This document shows, piece after piece, positions 35,599-64,000 of a DNA stretch of 64,000 bases. Position 1 is the stretch's first letter; each line of letters begins with the position of its first letter. The notes beneath the pieces were generated by a model. It was not told where the DNA came from. It made no database searches and saw only the letters and a list, made by a program, of their open reading frames with translations. The translations under genes and the position numbers were made by a program. Source of the stretch: Gimesia sp. (GTDB taxonomy: Bacteria > Planctomycetota > Planctomycetia > Planctomycetales > Planctomycetaceae); the NCBI RefSeq assembly GCF_040219335.1, contig NZ_JAVJSQ010000031.1:372001-436000 (forward strand). Reading direction: 5' to 3'.

Positions 35599-36369
35599 AT
35601 GTTTGAAAACAAGATCAAAACACTGCTTTCCCAGGGTGAAGTCGCTCTGGGAGTCGGTATGCCCGATGCTTCGGAAATTCTCGCAAAGCTCTCCGTCGAC
35701 ACGGGAGTCGATTTCCTCTGGATCGATCTGGAGCACCGTCCCTACAGCGTTAACGAAGTCAAACACCTCCCGATCATCGCCCGCCGCGCCGGCTGTATGC
35801 CGATGATCCGCGTCCCGGGTCTCGATCCGATCTACTTCAAGAAAGCGCTCGATATTGGCGCAAACACGATCATGGTCCCGCAGATCAATAATGCGGAAGA
35901 AGCCCGCCTGGCTGTCCAGTACGCCAAGTATCCCCCCGAAGGAACCCGGGGCGTCTCTCCCGACTGGACCATGTTCATGGACTTCTCCTTCGATGATTAC
36001 CTGCCACATGCAAACGAAGAAACCGCCATCGTCGCGCAGATCGAATCTCCTGAGGGGATCGAAAACATTGAGGAAATCGCGGCAGTTGACGGCATTGATG
36101 TGATCTTCGCCGGCCCGATGGACCTCTCCGCTTCACTGGGTGTCATCGGTCAGATTCAACATCCCGACCTGCTCAAACTGCTGGCCGAAATCCCTGCGCG
36201 GGCCGCCAAGGCGAATAAACCCGCCGGCATCACCTTCGCCGACCTCGACCGTTGCCGCGAAGCGATCGACCAGGGTTATCGATTCGTCAATATCGGTTCC
36301 ATCGCCAGCCTGGGTGGAATCGGCATCCGCGCCGTCCTGCCCGAACTTCGCGAGCGGGTTCGAAAATAA
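35599..36369 (+). CDS. HpcH/HpaI-family class II aldolase
   Basis: A 256-residue TIM-barrel aldolase of PF03328, metal-dependent and acting on 2-keto acids (the family includes 2-dehydro-3-deoxyglucarate and 4-hydroxy-2-oxoheptanedioate aldolases). Active-site elements are visible: IDLEH with E45 and the catalytic H46, R71 in MIRVPG, the metal Glu in AQIESPEG and the metal Asp in FAGPMDLS. Length and motif spacing are normal. There is no signal peptide, so it is cytoplasmic. Substrate cannot be decided from sequence; HpaI-like aldolases are promiscuous. A distant paralogue occurs at 59367. The start ATG at 35599 follows a weak purine run. Confidence 0.88.
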   Translation: MFENKIKTLLSQGEVALGVGMPDASEILAKLSVDTGVDFLWIDLEHRPYSVNEVKHLPIIARRAGCMPMIRVPGLDPIYFKKALDIGANTIMVPQINNAEEARLAVQYAKYPPEGTRGVSPDWTMFMDFSFDDYLPHANEETAIVAQIESPEGIENIEEIAAVDGIDVIFAGPMDLSASLGVIGQIQHPDLLKLLAEIPARAAKANKPAGITFADLDRCREAIDQGYRFVNIGSIASLGGIGIRAVLPELRERVRK

Positions 36370-55931: not shown

Positions 55932-56480
55932 ATGTCCATTACGACCTCATCTTCGGATCAAAATTCCGGAGAGACCTTTACATCATTGCTGGAGCAGGAG
56001 CGATTACGAATATTCGGTTATATTCGTACGCTTGTACCCCACAATTCTGATGCCGAGGACGTATACCAGCATGTGTGCCTGACACTCTGGAATAAATTCG
56101 ACGAGTTTGATCAGGAGCGCGACTTCTTTGCCTGGGCCTGTGGAATTGTATACTTCACCGTCTGTAACTTTCGGAGAAGTAATCAGCGTGATCGGCACTA
56201 TTTCAGCCAGGAGTTAATTGAAACAATGTCACAGGAGCGAATGCAACATCTGAGCAACTACAATCTCAGGCTGGAGCTCCTGCAAGACTGTTTCTACAGC
56301 CTGAGCCAGGCCGACCAGGAACTGCTGATCCATTCCACCCAGGAAAAACAGTCTATTAAGGACTTCGCCTGCAAAGCGGGTAAAACTGTGCAGACACTCT
56401 ACAATCGCCTCAGCACACTCAGACGCGAGCTGGCACAATGCGTCAAACGAAAACTGAAACAGGAGGGAAGCCTGAGATGA
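55932..56480 (+). CDS. ECF sigma factor (gvs1-type)
   Basis: A 182-residue RNA polymerase sigma factor. The region 2 segment includes IFGYIRTLVPHNSDAEDVYQ and FFAWACGIVYFTVCNFRR. Region 4 is SLSQADQELLIHSTQE then a helix-turn-helix-like FACKAGKTVQTLYNRLSTLR. It matches the planctomycete/verrucomicrobial sigma-70 group usually labelled Rhodopirellula/Verrucomicrobium family. It directs polymerase to unknown promoters. The ATG at 55932 starts before the conserved region. Its stop overlaps the start of the FecR-like gene (ATGA), so the pair is translationally coupled and the neighbour is the likely regulator. Confidence 0.9.
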   Translation: MSITTSSSDQNSGETFTSLLEQERLRIFGYIRTLVPHNSDAEDVYQHVCLTLWNKFDEFDQERDFFAWACGIVYFTVCNFRRSNQRDRHYFSQELIETMSQERMQHLSNYNLRLELLQDCFYSLSQADQELLIHSTQEKQSIKDFACKAGKTVQTLYNRLSTLRRELAQCVKRKLKQEGSLR

Positions 56481-58171
56481 GCCTGCAGGAAATTCCCCCG
56501 GAGTTTGACGAACTCCTGAATCAGTTTCTGGAAGACGAGCTCTCTGCAGAAGAGTTTGCCGCCTTCGAAAAGACGTTGCGGGAAAATCCCCAGGCGCGGA
56601 CTTACTATTTCGACGTACTGGATGTCAATTCCGGCATCGCTAAAAATCGTACGGATCGACTTCGTGATCTCGACAGAGTGATTCTGCAGGGAATTAAGAC
56701 ACCCCAGCCGGCTCAAGAACGTTCTACCTCACCGTCAAGTCGGGGCGGCGGGCGTGCCATCGCATTTCTCCTGGTGGCAGCGGCTTCGGTTTCAGTCCTT
56801 CTGCTGACAGAATGGATCATGACCGGCCACTTTTTCTGGAATCAGCCGAAGCAGGTCGTACAACCTGACAATAAAGCCAATGAAGATCCTCCGCTGGCAC
56901 TAAGCGATTCTTATGTCGCCACGCTTTCACGGTCCTTTGACTGCAAATGGGGAAATGAAAACCCGCCACGTTTCTCCGGCCAGAGACTGCTCTCCAAAGA
57001 TCTGACCCTGCTGCAGGGCATCGCAGAATTTCGCTTTGACAGCGGCGTCAGGCTCGTACTGGAAGGCCCGACGACCATCAGCATCGATTCTGCGACCTGT
57101 GCGAAAATCGCGTACGGTTCGGTGGTGCTGCACGGTTACGAATCTTCTCCCGAGTTTGAACTGGTGACCCCGCAGGCTCGCTTCTATGACATCGGCACCG
57201 AGTATGGTGCCAAAGTCGCTGAAGATGGGGGAACCGAGCTGCATGTTTTCCAGGGAGCGGTTCGCGTTCAGCCTGAAATTGAGCTGGCTCAGATTTCAGC
57301 TCCCCTGGTCGTGAATGAGGGAAATGCCCGCCTGATCGAACCAGAAACCAATAAGGAAATCAACCTCGAACCAACGCGCTTCAAACGGGAAGTTCCCGGC
57401 CAACCCAAGGCTCTGACTGCGGTTCGACAGGAACTGCTGGCCTATGACAGTTTTCACCCTCCGAAAATTGCCGACCCGGCCCGCTTCTCTGACTGGAGAA
57501 ATTCCGGTTTCGGCTGGACCACTCCCTGGCGCAGTCGGGCTCAGAAGCTGAGTGAAGCCCCCGGAAAAAGCCTGCCCCAGCTTTCGCTTCAACCTGATCA
57601 GAAATCCAAAGATCAAACCGGCAGTATCGAACTGGAACGGGGCAACACCGCCTGGCGATCCCTGGAAAAAGCGGTTCGTCTCGACACAGACGCTCTGTAC
57701 TACCTTAGCTTCTTTATCCAGCAGGCTGCAGAACCAACGGCGGCAGGACTCCATTACGGGAATATTTCGCTGCAGTCCGATCAGATCGATAAACTGACCG
57801 GCCAACGAGACAAGATCATGTTTGGAGTGAATTCTCAGAATTACCCCACCCTGCTACTGAAAGGGCAGACCCAGGAAAAAGCACCTCCCCTTCTCCCGGA
57901 AACGACTTACTTTTATGTAGCGAAAATCGTGGCCAGCGAGAATGCCCCCGACCAGATTTTCCTGCGTGTCTTTTATGAAGATGAAACCATCCCTGACCAG
58001 GAACCGCTGATCTGGACCTGCGTCTCCACGCCCTTCAAAGATTCCAACATCTACCCCCATATTCGTATTCATGCCGGTAAATCCAGCAAATATCGGTTTG
58101 ATGAACTACGAATCGGTTCTTCCTGGGAGTCCGTCGTGAATTTCCAGGACCCCAACAAGCTGCCGGAATAA
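56477..58171 (+). CDS. FecR-like membrane regulator (probable anti-sigma factor)
   Basis: A 564-residue protein starting at the ATG at 56477 (frame open earlier from a TTG inside the sigma gene). The cytoplasmic N-terminus has a short helical, acidic segment (FDELLNQFLEDELSAEEFAA) of the type that binds sigma factors. One transmembrane helix (about 94-116) precedes a FecR-like domain near 150-280 with VRLVLEGPTTIS, FYDIGTEYGAKV and LHVFQGAVRVQ. The last 280 residues, up to VNFQDPNKLPE, look like a beta-sandwich carbohydrate-binding or LamG-like region. It likely keeps the ECF sigma inactive until an external signal is sensed. The extra C-terminal domain may be the sensor; this is inference. 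Confidence 0.85.
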   Translation: MSLQEIPPEFDELLNQFLEDELSAEEFAAFEKTLRENPQARTYYFDVLDVNSGIAKNRTDRLRDLDRVILQGIKTPQPAQERSTSPSSRGGGRAIAFLLVAAASVSVLLLTEWIMTGHFFWNQPKQVVQPDNKANEDPPLALSDSYVATLSRSFDCKWGNENPPRFSGQRLLSKDLTLLQGIAEFRFDSGVRLVLEGPTTISIDSATCAKIAYGSVVLHGYESSPEFELVTPQARFYDIGTEYGAKVAEDGGTELHVFQGAVRVQPEIELAQISAPLVVNEGNARLIEPETNKEINLEPTRFKREVPGQPKALTAVRQELLAYDSFHPPKIADPARFSDWRNSGFGWTTPWRSRAQKLSEAPGKSLPQLSLQPDQKSKDQTGSIELERGNTAWRSLEKAVRLDTDALYYLSFFIQQAAEPTAAGLHYGNISLQSDQIDKLTGQRDKIMFGVNSQNYPTLLLKGQTQEKAPPLLPETTYFYVAKIVASENAPDQIFLRVFYEDETIPDQEPLIWTCVSTPFKDSNIYPHIRIHAGKSSKYRFDELRIGSSWESVVNFQDPNKLPE

Positions 58172-58473: not shown

Positions 58474-59148
58474 TCAGATCAGATCTTCAAACTGCTGTCG
58501 AATCAACACCCGGGCATGCTCCCGATCCTGCCTGCGAATGGCACTGGCCAGTTCCGCATGCTCCCAGACGATCCGTGCTGCTCTACCTGAATCCAATCGG
58601 TCAATTTCCGGCAGACTGTGAAAATACTCCGCGAGGATCTGCTGCATTCCGGCGACATATTTGGAACCGGTCATCTCCAGAACCAGGGAGTGAAATGCCA
58701 GATCCAGCTCGACTGATCGCTCCCATTCCTGATCTTCCAGGCAGGACTGCATCTCAGCCACCAGCGCATCCAGCTGGTCCATCTGTGATTCCGTCGCATT
58801 CTTGACCGCCAGCTCGATCGCACCGATTTCTAATACATACCGCAGCAACTTCAGTTCATCGCGTTCATGCGAAGAGACAGTGAGCAGTGGCAGACTTTCC
58901 GATAACAACTGAACCAGGTCCGGTCGCCTCACGACCAGTCCCTTGCGCTGCTTCCCGTCCAGAATCCCCAGGGCCCGCAGGCGACTGACCGCCTCGCGCA
59001 CAATTGTCCGTGAAACCTGATATTCTTCAGCCAGTTGTCCTTCCGTCATAAACACATGGCCTGCCGACAACTGCTCCTCAACGATGCGCGTACGGATTTG
59101 CTCAGCCAGTCGAGTCGCCATCGTATTTTGCGAAGAGTCTGTTTTCAT
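58474..59148 (-). CDS. GntR/FadR-family transcriptional regulator
   Basis: A 224-residue regulator from the ATG at 59148 (an upstream TTG at 59166 is possible). The N-terminal winged helix has the GntR pattern: RLAEQIRTRIVEEQLSAGHV, then LAEEYQVSRTIVREAVSRL and KGLVVRR. The C-terminal FCD domain is all-helical, with ELDLAFHSLVLEMTG and HAELASAIRRQDREHARVLI carrying the Asp/His residues that usually bind a metal near the effector pocket. FCD regulators mostly answer organic acids or keto acids. It is divergent from the aldolase and fusion-enzyme genes and very likely controls them. The effector is unknown. Confidence 0.92.
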   Translation of the reverse strand: MKTDSSQNTMATRLAEQIRTRIVEEQLSAGHVFMTEGQLAEEYQVSRTIVREAVSRLRALGILDGKQRKGLVVRRPDLVQLLSESLPLLTVSSHERDELKLLRYVLEIGAIELAVKNATESQMDQLDALVAEMQSCLEDQEWERSVELDLAFHSLVLEMTGSKYVAGMQQILAEYFHSLPEIDRLDSGRAARIVWEHAELASAIRRQDREHARVLIRQQFEDLI

Positions 59149-59150
59149 AC

Positions 59151-59309
59151 CAATATTATCATACAATTAAAACCCGCATGTCAATTATCTCAGCTCGGAG
59201 ATCTGCCAATCACCTCAGAATACATTGCATATTGTTATTTCAGACTCATTCCAGACTCACCTCCGATGAGCCTTGCAGTTTTTTTTATCCTACAATATTT
59301 TATGATTGT
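59151..59309. promoter_or_regulatory. Candidate paired operators between GntR gene and aldolase gene
   Basis: Two similar AT-rich sites flank the intergenic space: CAATATTATCATACAATT at 59151-59168 next to the regulator start, and ACAAT-N8-ATTGT at 59292-59309 before the aldolase. Read in opposite directions they share an AT-ATAA-ATATTG-like core with TA ends. FCD-type GntR proteins often bind such short palindromes, so control of both genes by the regulator is plausible. Confidence 0.4.
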
Positions 59310-59366
59310 TAACACCGTCAGCTTCCAACCACCGCCGCGTGCCATCGTTGACAAAGGAAATCCTTA

Positions 59367-60215
59367 ATGCGAATCAGTCGCGTCAAACAGAAACTCAACC
59401 AGAATGAACCGGTCCTCTTTACGCAGCTGCATCTGTTAGACCCCAGCGTCTTTGAACTGACCAGCCTGATGGGTTTTGATGGCATCTGGATGGATATGGA
59501 ACATCACACCTATAGTGTAGAGACAGCCAACCAGCTAATGCGGGCTGCCCGAATCGGAAGTTCTGACATTCTGGCACGACCAGCCAACGGCGAGTTCATG
59601 CGACTGGGACGCATGCTGGAAGCGGGTGCCCAGGGCATCATGTATCCGCGCTGCAGCAGCGCGGAAGAGGCAGCTGAAGTGGTGAAATGGTCCAAGTTCG
59701 CCCCCCAGGGAAAACGGGGATTTGACGGCGGCAATCCGGACATGCCTTATTGCACGATGCCGATGGGTGAGTACATTCAGCAGGCAAACGAAAATACATT
59801 TATCATCATCCAGTTGGAAGAACAGGCAGCGGTCGACCAGGCGGAAGCCATTGCAGCGGTCCCGGGGGTTGATGCACTGATGCTGGGGCCGGGTGACTTC
59901 TCAATCCTGGAAGGCTTCCCCGGACAGTTTGACCACCCACGCCTCCAGGCTGCCATCGACGCCATTGCTGCCGCCGCCGCAAACCAGGGCAAACACTGGG
60001 GCATGCCGACCTTTAACACCGAACACGCGCAGATGCTGCTCAGCAAAGGTGCCCGGCTGCTGTTCCACATGGCGGATATTATCTTCATCAAGAATGGGCT
60101 GGAACTGATGCAGCAGCAGTTCAGCCAGATTGGGTTCACCTTCGATAATCAGCTCAACAAACCAGCCACAGCCTACCTGGAGGGCAAGAGTGATGAACAG
60201 CAAGCTTCCCGATGA
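59367..60215 (+). CDS. HpcH/HpaI-family class II aldolase (second copy)
   Basis: A 282-residue TIM-barrel aldolase of PF03328. Active-site elements: WMDMEHHTYS with E45 and H46, the Arg in LARPANGE, a metal Glu in IIQLEEQA and a metal Asp in MLGPGDFS. Length is normal. It differs throughout from the copy at 35599, for example in the barrel core GAQGIMYPRCSSAEEA versus GANTIMVPQINNAEEA, so a different substrate is likely. It is the first gene of a two-gene unit with the fused amidohydrolase-aminotransferase, whose ATG overlaps its end by 23 bases. It probably makes or splits a 2-keto acid that is the amination target of its partner (inference). Confidence 0.9.
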   Translation: MRISRVKQKLNQNEPVLFTQLHLLDPSVFELTSLMGFDGIWMDMEHHTYSVETANQLMRAARIGSSDILARPANGEFMRLGRMLEAGAQGIMYPRCSSAEEAAEVVKWSKFAPQGKRGFDGGNPDMPYCTMPMGEYIQQANENTFIIIQLEEQAAVDQAEAIAAVPGVDALMLGPGDFSILEGFPGQFDHPRLQAAIDAIAAAAANQGKHWGMPTFNTEHAQMLLSKGARLLFHMADIIFIKNGLELMQQQFSQIGFTFDNQLNKPATAYLEGKSDEQQASR

Positions 60216-62529
60216 CAAGACACTCTTCGACCAGCAACTGAAGCAGTTTATGCCCCCGGGCAGCTTCGATGCCCACGCTCACTTCTATCGCCCCCAGGAC
60301 GCTATCGCCGGACTGCCCTCCTCTGCTGAAAATGCGCAGGGCTTCTCCGGCTGGCAGGAATACTATGACAAGCAGGAACTCTGGATGGGCTCGCTCCGCC
60401 CCTCCGCGGGACTGTTCTTTGCGATTCCGAATCCCAAACTGGAACGGGACGGGGCCAATGAGTATGTCCTCAATGAAATCAAAGATCAGTCCGGTTCGCG
60501 TGCCCTGCTACTGGTCACACCGGCAGACGACCCCGCTGAAGTCGAAGCCAAAATCAAAGCCGGCCCCTACAGCGGCTTCAAGGTCTATCACGTTTACGCT
60601 GATCGCGCAGACACCCTGGAAGCGGAGCCCCAGGAATTCATTCCGGAATGGGTCTGGGAACTGTCTGAACAATATAGTCTGGCGATCATGCTGCATATGG
60701 TTCGTGCCCGTGCGGTGGCAGATCCAATTAACCAGAGCTATATCCGCAATCGTTGCCTGCAGTACCCCAATGCCAAACTGATCCTGGCGCATGCCGCCCG
60801 TGGCTTCTGTGGCAATCATACCACCGAAGGCATCGCTTCCCTGCGCGGACTGGACAATGTCTTCTTCGACACCTCCGCCGTCTGTGAAGCGCAACCATTC
60901 GAAGCCATTCTCCGCGAGTTCGGCACCACCCGCCTGATGTTTGGAACCGACTTCTCCGTCAGCGAACTTACGGGACGCTGCGTGAGTATCGGCGATGGCT
61001 TTCTCTGGCTGGGAGATCAGAACGTCAACTGGGAAACATCCAGGTTTGCCCAACCGGCGCGTGTGGGACTCGAATCCCTGCTGGCCCTCAAACAGGCCTG
61101 CCACACCCTCAGACTGAATGATGCCGACGTCGAGCGTATTTTCGGCACCAACGCACGACAGATGCTGGGCATCCAGACTGCCTCCACACAGAACCAGACC
61201 CAGGAAACCTATCGGCGTGCGAAGCAGTTGATTCCCGGCGGCACACAGTTACTCAGCAAGCGCCCCGAAATGTTTGCCCCGGACTGCTGGCCCGGCTATT
61301 ACCGAGAAGCCAGCGGCTGCGAAGTGATCGACCTCGACGGCAGAAAGTATCACGATCTGGCGACGTCCGGAATCGGCTCCTGCCTGCTGGGCTATCGCGA
61401 CCCCGATGTGACTGACGCTGTCGTACGTCGGGTTCAACTCGGCTCCATGAGCTCGCTGAATGCTCCGGAAGAAGTGGAACTTGCTGCACTGCTGACGGAA
61501 CTGCATCCCTGGTCCGACCAGGCCCGCTTCTGTCGCACCGGCGGCGAATCGATGTCGATCGCTGTTCGAATCGCCCGCGCCTCCACCGGCCGCGATGAGG
61601 TCGCTTTGTGTGGCTATCATGGCTGGAGCGACTGGTACCTGGCTACCAACCTGCCCCGCAAGTCAGCCGAAACGGGAACCACTCTCGACAAACACCTGCT
61701 GCCCGGCCTGGAACCAGCGGGCGTTCCCATGGGGCTGGCAGAGACGACACACCCCTTTACCTATAACGATATCGATGCCCTGAAACAGATTGTGAAGGAA
61801 CGCGGTTCCCAACTGGCCGCTGTCGTAATGGAACCCACGCGCTACACGCACCCTGAACCAGGATTTCTGGAAGCGGTTCGCGAGATCTGTGATGAGTGCG
61901 GGGCGGTGCTGGTGATTGATGAAATCACCACCGGCTGGCGATTGACGCTGGGCGGCGCGCATCTGCATTACGGGATTGAGCCTGACATCGCGGTGTTCGC
62001 GAAAGCACTCGGCAACGGACACCCGATTGCAGCCATCATCGGCAGGCGGAACGTCATGGATGCCGCCGAGAACTCCTTCATCTCCAGCACCTACTGGACC
62101 GAAGGCGTCGGTCCGACCGCGGCGCTGGCGACCATCAAAAAAATGCAGTCTGTCGATGTCCGTCAGCACATTGACCAGATTGGGGAAGCGTTTCGTGCCG
62201 GCTGGAGTGAGCTGGGAGCACGCCATCAACTGCCCGTCAAAGTCTTTGGGCATGCGGTGCTGCTGCATCATACGTTCGACCATCCGCAGGCCGCCGAACT
62301 GGGGACGCTGTTTACGATTCGCATGCTGGATCACAGTTTCCTGACCGGCAGTGGATTCTATCCGACACTCGCGCACGAGCAGCGGCATGTCGATGCATAC
62401 TTCCAGGCAGCGGACGCCGTTTTCGCCGAACTGAAACAGTCCCTTGACCAGAATGACTTAACGAAGCGATTGAGTACTCCGGTCCGGCACTCCGGGTTTG
62501 CCCGGCTGACCCCCAGCCCGAAAAGCTGA
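60193..62529 (+). CDS. Fusion of amidohydrolase and class III aminotransferase/aminomutase
   Basis: A 778-residue two-enzyme fusion (ATG at 60193). Residues about 1-328 are a PF04909-type amidohydrolase with the expected metal ligands: H28 and H30 in FDAHAHF, H168 in LHMVRAR, H200 in LAHAARG and D253 in FGTDFS. After a short Thr/Gln-rich linker, residues about 336-778 are a class III PLP enzyme close to glutamate-1-semialdehyde aminomutase. It opens RRAKQLIPGGTQLLSKRP, has FCRTGGESMSIAVR, D576 in VIDEITTGWRL, and the PLP lysine K604 in FAKALGNGHPIAAI. The two activities probably act in sequence on one intermediate with the coupled aldolase. The frame is also open from 60130, but those codons lie in the aldolase gene. 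Confidence 0.9.
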   Translation: MNSKLPDDKTLFDQQLKQFMPPGSFDAHAHFYRPQDAIAGLPSSAENAQGFSGWQEYYDKQELWMGSLRPSAGLFFAIPNPKLERDGANEYVLNEIKDQSGSRALLLVTPADDPAEVEAKIKAGPYSGFKVYHVYADRADTLEAEPQEFIPEWVWELSEQYSLAIMLHMVRARAVADPINQSYIRNRCLQYPNAKLILAHAARGFCGNHTTEGIASLRGLDNVFFDTSAVCEAQPFEAILREFGTTRLMFGTDFSVSELTGRCVSIGDGFLWLGDQNVNWETSRFAQPARVGLESLLALKQACHTLRLNDADVERIFGTNARQMLGIQTASTQNQTQETYRRAKQLIPGGTQLLSKRPEMFAPDCWPGYYREASGCEVIDLDGRKYHDLATSGIGSCLLGYRDPDVTDAVVRRVQLGSMSSLNAPEEVELAALLTELHPWSDQARFCRTGGESMSIAVRIARASTGRDEVALCGYHGWSDWYLATNLPRKSAETGTTLDKHLLPGLEPAGVPMGLAETTHPFTYNDIDALKQIVKERGSQLAAVVMEPTRYTHPEPGFLEAVREICDECGAVLVIDEITTGWRLTLGGAHLHYGIEPDIAVFAKALGNGHPIAAIIGRRNVMDAAENSFISSTYWTEGVGPTAALATIKKMQSVDVRQHIDQIGEAFRAGWSELGARHQLPVKVFGHAVLLHHTFDHPQAAELGTLFTIRMLDHSFLTGSGFYPTLAHEQRHVDAYFQAADAVFAELKQSLDQNDLTKRLSTPVRHSGFARLTPSPKS

Positions 62530-62846: not shown

Positions 62847-64000
62847 TCAGATCAGTAACATTCCCACCTGATAGCAGACCAGTGCTCCCAGGTAGGCCAG
62901 CGTGGTCATATAAGTAAAGGAGACGGCCGGCCAGAACCAGCTGTTGGTTTCGCGACGCATCACCATTAAAGTCGCTGCACACTGCGCACACAGGGCAAAA
63001 AAGACCATGATGGAGACCGCGACGGGAATATTGAAAACTTTGCTGCCATCGGGCCAGGTGGCGGAACGAATGGAACCGATCAGCCCTTCGTCATCTTCGC
63101 CCACATCCCCCCCCAGGCTGTAGATCGTCCCCAAAGTCGAAATAATTACTTCACGTGCGGGGAAGGAAGCGATAACCCCCACCCCGATTTTCCAGTCCCA
63201 GCCGAGTGGCTTGACAACCGGTGCGATCAGATGCCCCGCCTGACCCAGAAAACTGTTTTCTACCAGCTGACTGCTGATCTGATTCTGTTTCTCCGCCAGC
63301 ATTTCCTGTTCTGCACTGAGCTCGGCCTGCTGTGCTTGTAGACCTTTGACGGCAGCCGGCTCCAGTTCCTCCGCATCAGCAATCTGTGTTTCCAGCTCTG
63401 CGAGTGAAGCGTCAATGGTTTCCAGTCGGGTTTCCACTTTGAACTGTTCGGTGTGGTCCCCCGGGAAATATCCGGCGGCCCAGATCAGAATCGATGTGGC
63501 AAAAATCAACGTTCCGGCTTTAACCACAAAGGACTTGGCCCGGTTATACACTCGATAAAACACGTGCCGGGGAGAAGGCCACTTGTAACCGGGCAGCTCC
63601 ATCACGAAGGGGGCGACTTCTCCTTTGAAGCAGATCCGTTTGAGGAACCAGGCGACCGGAATCGCGATCAGGGCACCAATTGAAGACATCGCGAAGAGCA
63701 CGATTCCCTGTAATGAGACAAGAGGACTGCCTGCGATCGAAAAGTAAACAATATTCGGAATGAAGGCCGCGATGAACAGCGTGTAAACGGGCCAGCGGGC
63801 CGAGCAACTCATCAGGGGAGCGACCAGAATTGTCGTGAGACGTTCGTGGCGGTTCTCGATCACCCGGGTCGCCATAATCCCGGGGACGGCACAGGCAAAG
63901 GACGACATCAGTGGAATAAACGACTTGCCACTCAATCCCAGGCTGCGCATCAGGCGGTCCATGATGTAAGCAGCCCGCGCCATGTATCCACTGTCTTCCA
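62847..64000 (-). CDS. feoB: Ferrous iron transporter FeoB, C-terminal part (runs off window)
   Basis: The frame is open through the right edge, so the N-terminal GTPase is outside the window. The visible part starts in the EDSGYMARAAYIMDR motif typical of FeoB. It continues through the conserved GATE regions: SSFACAVPGIMATR, NRHERLTTILVAPLMSCSAR, and later ASFPAREVIISTLGTIY. Fe2+ uptake across the cytoplasmic membrane is the role. An insertion of about 60 residues between 63250 and 63450 is a predicted coiled coil (VETRLETIDASLAELETQ and onward), with charged heptads; E. coli FeoB lacks such a segment as far as I know. The Cys-rich partner gene follows directly. Confidence 0.92.
   Translation of the reverse strand, partial: EDSGYMARAAYIMDRLMRSLGLSGKSFIPLMSSFACAVPGIMATRVIENRHERLTTILVAPLMSCSARWPVYTLFIAAFIPNIVYFSIAGSPLVSLQGIVLFAMSSIGALIAIPVAWFLKRICFKGEVAPFVMELPGYKWPSPRHVFYRVYNRAKSFVVKAGTLIFATSILIWAAGYFPGDHTEQFKVETRLETIDASLAELETQIADAEELEPAAVKGLQAQQAELSAEQEMLAEKQNQISSQLVENSFLGQAGHLIAPVVKPLGWDWKIGVGVIASFPAREVIISTLGTIYSLGGDVGEDDEGLIGSIRSATWPDGSKVFNIPVAVSIMVFFALCAQCAATLMVMRRETNSWFWPAVSFTYMTTLAYLGALVCYQVGMLLI

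Follow-up and report, generated by a model that had tools for sequence, protein, structure and literature searches.

Which pathway is served by a locus of three genes in Gimesia sp. (Planctomycetota; Planctomycetaceae), in which a GntR-family regulator of the FCD type is divergent from an HpcH/HpaI-family aldolase and a protein that fuses a PF04909 metal hydrolase to a class-III enzyme dependent on pyridoxal phosphate (PLP)? The locus lies in a window of 64,000 nucleotides (GCF_040219335.1, contig NZ_JAVJSQ010000031.1, positions 372,001 to 436,000 of the forward strand), to which the positions below refer; other genomes, contigs and loci are numbered with the prefixes G, C and L, the window's own genome being G000. 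Judged by homology and gene context, there is an even chance that the three genes make up the central part of a module that degrades a glycan-derived amino sugar or amino sugar acid. The component families are known, while their combination appears to be undescribed: a search of the open-licence PubMed Central literature, with subscription papers outside its scope, found no description of the fusion or the gene set. The pathway without a published description that a first-pass annotation had proposed is thus plausible, but the three genes are not the whole of it, as relatives add further partners.

Composition and conservation of the locus

All the elements named in the first-pass annotation were recovered (Table 1), namely the FCD-type GntR regulator, the HpcH/HpaI aldolase, the fusion of 778 residues beginning with the ATG at 60193, and the overlap of 23 bases between the aldolase and fusion genes (60193-60215). 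The hydrolase half exceeds the PF04909 gathering score and carries the HxH, H, H, D metal ligands of that family; these residues (H28, H30, H168, H200 and D253), already described as intact, are invariant in 102 of 102 aligned hydrolase domains, a set including a few duplicates of one genome. K130, Y132, N180, R203 and D226 are likewise invariant in this set, in fused and single proteins alike, and K130 is a candidate for a carbamylated lysine that would bridge two metals in the active site. The PLP half exceeds the PF00202 gathering score, and D576 and K604, to which attention had also been drawn, do not vary in either of two alignments, with 13 and 40 fusions.

The arrangement of the three genes is more than chance, since the aldolase adjoins the fusion in 10 of the 12 nearest genus-mates (fusion at least 79% identical, the window's own genome counted) and the GntR gene is present in 9 of them, one contig stopping too early.

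The aldolase shares its family and active-site residues with the class II pyruvate aldolases HpaI, GarL and RhmA. H46, R71, Q149, E151 and D177, which by analogy with HpaI we take to be catalytic or metal-binding, are kept in at least 97% of 44 relatives, in agreement with the earlier suggestion that the enzyme acts on a keto acid or aldehyde. The nearest solved chain is 3qz6 (E 3e-31). The protein differs from the named enzymes in that it falls below every equivalog cut-off of the three, with 126-128 bits against the 369-407 required for HpaI and GarL. A second gene of the HpcH/HpaI family occurs in the window at about 35599-36369 (+), with 32% identity to the locus aldolase (match at G000:C31:407611-408285).

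Relationships of the PLP half

The PLP half had been described as resembling glutamate-1-semialdehyde aminomutase (GSAM), a hint at function that does not withstand closer comparison. The fusion shares with HemL the class III fold family and the lysine and aspartate of the PLP site, and GSAM-type models give its best NCBIfam scores, but each score lies far under its cut-off: 203.7 against 527.3 for hemL, 234.7 against 486 for PRK06209, 215 against 398 for PRK00062, 159 against 637 for PRK12389 and 126.3 against 706 for PRK00615. A separate HemL-like gene of the same genome (L158) keeps the stretches NSPARAF (NSPxRAF) and GTLSGNP, which matter for the GSAM substrate site, whereas the fusion has TQLLSKRPEMF and SSTYWTEG at these places. 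A role as true GSAM, or as another aminomutase of haem or amino-acid metabolism, is therefore hardly credible, and a haem function was rejected because models were missed, motifs were absent and the tree placed the domain elsewhere.

When 127 PLP domains were placed in a tree, the fusions grouped with a few single PLP genes and with the PLP genes of L053, L054, L055 and L073 in one clade with a support of 100. Both this tree and that of the hydrolase domains were quick reconstructions with SH-aLRT support only, from which six duplicate or near-duplicate loci and rows of fewer than 300 (or 250) aligned residues were left out. The four genes sit beside NeuB-family synthases in nonulosonic-acid clusters and share a TQxLSKRP-type motif with the fusion; they are unfused or fused to a cytidylyltransferase and belong to biosynthetic clusters, whereas the window's PLP domain is fused to a hydrolase. 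Model cut-offs were passed by PseI in L055, L073 and L077, by PseB in L073, and by PseC and PseG in L055; Pfam recognised NeuB in all five loci tested, and of 28 loci whose PLP gene is unfused, 10 gave a NeuB-like match. The cluster tables of the fusion loci hold no NeuB, although no scan was aimed at it there, and reading the window neighbours gave no NeuB-type gene, no NeuB scan of the window genome having been made. The clade shared with enzymes of PseB/PseC/PseI operons, together with NeuB beside unfused genes, suggests that this PLP family works in amino-sugar settings.

A comparable setting is reported for Legionella pneumophila, where a GSAM-labelled gene lies beside PseG, a cytidylyltransferase and NeuB in the O-antigen clusters of serogroup 6/12 (PMC3694923); the likeness noted here is one of gene setting. 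The fusion of the PLP domain to a cytidylyltransferase was seen at L053:2954-5020 in a nonulosonic-acid cluster (Pfam-checked), and the same fusion was recognised by tblastn and frame length at L077:4021-6096 and L165:9456-12092.

Hydrolase half and probable domain exchange

Searched as a single sequence (phmmer), the hydrolase domain has no match in the Protein Data Bank (PDB) at E up to 1. A profile of the domain reaches remote PF04909 enzymes only, namely 3cjp (E 1e-5), 2f6k, a gamma-resorcylate decarboxylase and 4dlf (E 4e-4), and these weak matches fit a lactonase, a decarboxylase and a hydrolase alike. The entry 4dlf is listed as Amidohydrolase 2 and is presumably the L-fuconolactonase structure.

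The first-pass annotation had considered that homologues might be split and unlinked. This applies to G034, G396 and G187, where the two halves lie in different places, but seven split pairs are adjacent (L057, L058, L059, L062, L064, L065 and L103), with a PhyH gene between the stand-alone hydrolase and the PLP gene in L064 and L065.

A further group of eight fusions (L050, L109, L110, L113, L115, L117, L120 and L125) combines a PLP domain 62-67% identical to the window's with a hydrolase domain that, in the two members compared (L109 and L125), shares only 25-27% identity with its counterpart in the window. The identity rises to 38-41% with the stand-alone hydrolases of L059 and L065, which themselves adjoin PLP genes. 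These eight are nested among the other fusions by the PLP tree and join the stand-alone type by the hydrolase tree, which carries a long-branch warning. On the simplest account, their clade appears to have kept its PLP domain and swapped its hydrolase domain for one from a different PF04909 subfamily. Since this type of PLP enzyme is repeatedly paired with either type of hydrolase, the two steps probably follow one another.

Occurrence of the fusion and of its partner genes

Searched across Planctomycetota, as had been proposed, the fusion is not rare: of 392 genomes drawn from this phylum, 18 encode it at full length, with a close relative of the PLP domain in 30 (E up to 3.4e-94) and a match to some part of the fusion in 47 (E up to 1e-54). 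A scan of named genomes confirmed at least 577 relatives; the best 80 were kept, of which 77 are fused, a share biased by the choice of the best full-length matches. The record titles of the scan name Planctomycetota, Verrucomicrobia, Bacteroidota (Chitinophagaceae and the cultured genus Membranihabitans), Acidobacteria, Spirochaetes, Clostridia, Armatimonadetes, Lentisphaerae, Omnitrophota, Hydrogenedentes and Deltaproteobacteria. Fusion relatives thus occur in metagenome-assembled genomes labelled as about ten phyla besides Planctomycetota, although single odd placements may be binning errors, as nearly all carriers are such assemblies.

The fullest cluster (L058, in G266) has a GntR gene, 53% identical to the window's, divergent from the other genes, which follow in the order SSS symporter, 771-residue two-propeller protein, aldolase (59% identical to the window's), Gfo/Idh, PhyH, HEAT, SDR, PLP gene and hydrolase. 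Counts over the fetched flanks of 98 loci, where gene calls are simple picks of open reading frames (ORFs), gave SDR in 27, a 5-bladed propeller in 25, PhyH and aldolase in 22 each, GntR in 9 and AKR in 6, with at least one scored partner family in 61 loci. The SSS cluster of 22 loci is an upper bound, as it took in some HEAT-repeat ORFs (L141:8956). A SusD-like gene was present in six of eight Bacteroidota loci, checked by Pfam in L136 and L141.

Co-occurrence was assessed with 26 of the 392 genomes counted as carriers, defined by the fusion or a close PLP gene after setting aside four genomes whose PLP gene lies in nonulosonic (pseudaminic-type) clusters; orthologues were called at cut-offs chosen in this analysis (E up to 1e-80 for SDR, 1e-70 for PhyH and 1e-75 for the aldolase). 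An SDR orthologue was found in 22 of the 26 carriers and 3 of the 362 other genomes, PhyH in 15 and none, and the aldolase in 15 and 3, with none of the three in the pseudaminic-type genomes. Within the class, the proportions in carriers and others were 21/23 against 3/17 for SDR, 14/23 against 0/17 for PhyH and 14/23 against 3/17 for the aldolase; with genera collapsed, the associations of SDR (p = 0.004) and PhyH (p = 7e-5) persisted. In two mixed genera (g5 and g33), SDR and PhyH were confined to the one carrier genome, among three genomes in one genus and four in the other. Gfo/Idh was detected in 18 of 19 carriers and none of five non-carriers searched, as was SDR; in the exception (G054), an AKR takes that place in the operon.

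A close PhyH (at least 51% identity) was present in 22 of 36 genomes searched, and in 7 of the 22 no more than 2 kb separated it from the PLP gene or fusion (binomial probability about 4e-12, ignoring common descent). A close aldolase (at least 52%) was present in 21 of 42 genomes searched, and its distance from the fusion or PLP gene was 5 kb or less in 14 of them.

In the window's own genome, orthologues of Gfo/Idh (54%) and SDR (61%) stand side by side on another contig (G000:C29:695412-697245), and the surrounding stretch (L192) adds two propellers, one BNR-type (64%) and one 5-bladed (40%), as well as a GntR gene with a sugar-binding domain. The window locus and the C29 locus may make up one pathway in two loci.

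Partner genes also assemble away from the fusion. L172 (G054) contains SSS, a PF01168/PF14031 PLP gene, propellers, an aldolase (75%), an AKR (51%), PhyH (62%) and SDR (60%), and the partner modules of L173, L184, L185 and L186 are similar, not identical, to it. PLP genes of the D-threonine-aldolase/D-serine-dehydratase type occur in L172 and L173, and RidA in L186 and, by eye, in L173. The RidA-like gene of L186, whose genome (G040) has no fusion, is a possible sign of another deamination route.

The propellers match no Pfam family at cut-off, the L172 copy having a BNR_2 match below it, and the one 5-bladed propeller searched with phmmer has no PDB match at E up to 1. Two secreted-looking beta-propeller proteins are naturally fused at L058:15259-17571 and L172:6981-9308, and the halves are separate genes in L141 (3815-4849 and 18585-20054). 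A further family, recognised by eye from its start (L/M/F)DLTQS..ASP, was seen at L187:3807-4892, L188:10592-11677 and L125:1-774, where it adjoins PhyH, and at L060:8226-9302, near the PLP gene; the L188 copy gave no Pfam match.

Proposed pathway and alternative explanations

On the reading that these genes are central to amino-sugar catabolism, secreted beta-propeller enzymes, as encoded by the relatives with the fullest clusters, would release the sugar, which would be imported by a sodium symporter or an MFS carrier, with SusC/SusD added in Bacteroidota. Oxidation by the Gfo/Idh or AKR and SDR enzymes would follow, with hydroxylation by the PhyH oxygenase in some cases. The PF04909 half of the fusion would then hydrolyse a bond adjacent to or masking the nitrogen (an N-acyl group, lactone or lactam), the class-III PLP half would remove the amine by transamination, and the HpcH/HpaI aldolase would split the resulting 2-oxo acid into pyruvate and an aldehyde. 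An amino sugar is suggested as substrate because the PLP clade includes genes beside NeuB synthases in PseB/PseC/PseI/PseG operons. What the sequences themselves show is the gene content, the conserved active-site residues, the apparent domain exchange and the co-occurrence of the genes; the class of substrate, the bond hydrolysed, the direction of transamination and the ligand of the regulator are inferred from them.

The closest known parallel is the ong pathway, in which, according to PMC9537276 and PMC12017989, OngB deacetylates and OngC deaminates N-acetylglucosaminate from oxidised chitin, with an SSS transporter and a RidA protein. The system (OngB, OngC, OngD and OngIT) resembles the one proposed here in placing a TIM-barrel amidohydrolase before a PLP enzyme on an N-acyl amino sugar acid, in its SSS transporter and RidA protein (RidA-like genes being those of L186 and L173) and in ending in a 2-oxo-3-deoxy acid. 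There are also differences: separate genes encode OngB, a D-aminoacylase-type enzyme, and OngC, an enzyme of the D-amino-acid-deaminase type, whereas PF04909 and class-III PLP domains are fused here, and the HpcH aldolase stands here where the ong pathway has a kinase and phospho-aldolase. As the enzyme families differ (PF04909 and PF00202), the locus is not a member of the ong pathway; the ong-like PLP type (PF01168 with PF14031) was met in other loci only (L172 and L173).

Several observations weigh against catabolism of an amino sugar by this gene set. The p-values over the 392 genomes ignore shared ancestry, and with genera collapsed within the class the association of the aldolase is not significant (p 0.19). 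Aldolase and SDR occur without the fusion or a close PLP gene in G160 (L185), G040 (L186) and G383, while the genus-mates G013 and G016 keep the fusion and have lost the aldolase and GntR genes. No scored partner was present in 37 of the 98 loci, and these genomes often carry propellers and DUF1501/PSCyt genes, whose occurrence at the loci is given without a random-locus background. A close PhyH was not found in the window genome, where the best match reaches 37%. Finally, we know of no PF04909 enzyme acting as an amide deacylase, which weakens the variant in which an N-acyl group is removed.

In a possible but rather doubtful variant of the same catabolic module, the hydrolase half is a sugar lactonase that serves the dehydrogenase (Gfo/Idh or AKR), after which the PLP half acts on the open amino-aldonate, or is a PLP-dependent ammonia-lyase and not a transaminase. 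Lactonases are known in this branch of the hydrolase superfamily, 4dlf is among the profile matches, Gfo/Idh or AKR is a constant partner, and no separate lactonase gene was seen in L058; yet those matches cannot pick among lactonase, decarboxylase and hydrolase, and in G160, G040 and G383, where Gfo/Idh, aldolase and SDR occur without the fusion, a lactonase role would have to be met otherwise. A more specific proposal, which we regard as unlikely, concerns the breakdown of pseudaminic- or legionaminic-type nonulosonic acids, which are amino, often N-acylated, 3-deoxy-2-ulosonic acids. Sialidase-like propellers would release them, SSS would import them, the aldolase would be the pyruvate-splitting lyase, and the fusion would deprotect and deaminate; the proposal draws on the kinship of the PLP enzyme, the BNR-type propellers and the 2-oxo-acid aldolase, and, if true, the route would be the catabolic counterpart to a pathway known so far mainly from its biosynthetic side.

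It is decidedly improbable that the substrate is an amino compound other than a sugar, whether an amino-phosphonate or an amino acid that is hydroxylated or of the D form, hydroxylated by PhyH and processed by the PLP half as an omega-transaminase. The D-threonine-aldolase/D-serine-dehydratase-type PLP genes and RidA that accompany the partner genes in L172, L173 and L186 are consistent with such a compound, as is the weak match of PhyH to the methylphosphonate hydroxylase model (E 9e-8), but secreted propellers, SusD, Gfo/Idh, sugar-type SDRs and the pseudaminic-operon kinship of the PLP half favour sugars, and D-glucosaminate-type sugar acids, the case of OngC, are D-amino acids too. A biosynthetic fusion, decorating a surface or nonulosonic-acid sugar as its relatives in PseB/PseC/PseI operons do, is very unlikely. 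The PLP clade does hold such operon enzymes, some of them cytidylyltransferase-fused (L053), but NeuB was met beside unfused genes (10 of the 28 loci tested) and not in the cluster tables of the fusion loci, where no scan was aimed at it. Uptake, as opposed to synthesis, is what an FCD regulator, symporters, SusC/SusD and hydrolase-like secreted propellers would suit. The AKRs of catabolic and nonulosonic clusters share 23-36% identity, a weak tie that was not relied on.

Should the amino-sugar catabolic module hold, a carbohydrate-use pathway of Planctomycetota, Verrucomicrobiota, Bacteroidota and others would have been overlooked because its PLP enzyme resembles GSAM, and the recycling of amino sugars from bacterial glycans by biofilm and plankton degraders would be explained. 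With fusion, aldolase, SDR, Gfo/Idh or AKR, PhyH, propellers and symporter as a defined set of genes, the question becomes testable in culturable Gimesia or Membranihabitans. A PLP clade shared between operons for pseudaminic-acid synthesis and a degradative locus would also give a way into the unassigned step of the biosynthetic operons.

Regulation, gene coordinates and neighbouring genes

The regulator reached no NCBIfam model cut-off, and its gene extends to 59166 if a TTG start is used. Relatives of about 50% identity lie near the aldolase and/or the fusion in L041, L044, L058, L085 and L113. The intergenic region (59149-59366) contains two putative TTATCMTACAAT operator-like sites, one ahead of each gene. 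The core of site 1, TATTATCATAC, is identical in all eight of the genus's intergenic regions that were aligned, and site 2 is kept less strictly among relatives. The two sites are the sole matches in the window at up to one mismatch, a circular result as the pattern was taken from them; in the genome of 7.9 Mb, TTATCMTAYAAT has four exact copies, two of which are these sites, against one copy of the reversed control pattern. The FCD regulator would keep the operon off until a substrate or intermediate, its presumed ligand, is present.

Table 1. Features of the locus, with coordinates in the window.
Feature	Position	Strand	Basis or remark
GntR family FCD-type transcription regulator, 224 aa	58474..59148	-	PF07729 71.5 bits and PF00392 46.8 bits, both above cut-off
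Operator-like site 1, TTATCATACAAT	59156..59167	+	Directly upstream of regulator
Operator-like site 2, TTATCCTACAAT	59285..59296	+	Upstream of aldolase
HpcH/HpaI-family class II pyruvate aldolase, 282 aa	59367..60215	+	PF03328 88.6 bits (cut-off 25)
Fusion, PF04909 metal hydrolase (residues 1-330) and class-III PLP enzyme (331-778)	60193..62529	+	Pfam, alignments
Fusion hydrolase domain, type 'AHa'	60193..61182	+	PF04909 at residues 26-327, 55.2 bits (cut-off 26.4); invariant metal-ligand set; remote profile matches only
Fusion class-III PLP domain, K604 candidate Schiff-base lysine	61183..62526	+	PF00202 at residues 370-699, 160.4 bits (cut-off 30.5); tree; motif comparison

Directly upstream of the locus, an ECF-sigma-like gene followed by a gene for a membrane-anchored FecR/LamG-like protein was recognised by eye (55932-58171, +). 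On its other side, a FeoB-like iron transporter gene, also recognised by eye (62847-63998, -), is convergent with the fusion and runs past the end of the window.

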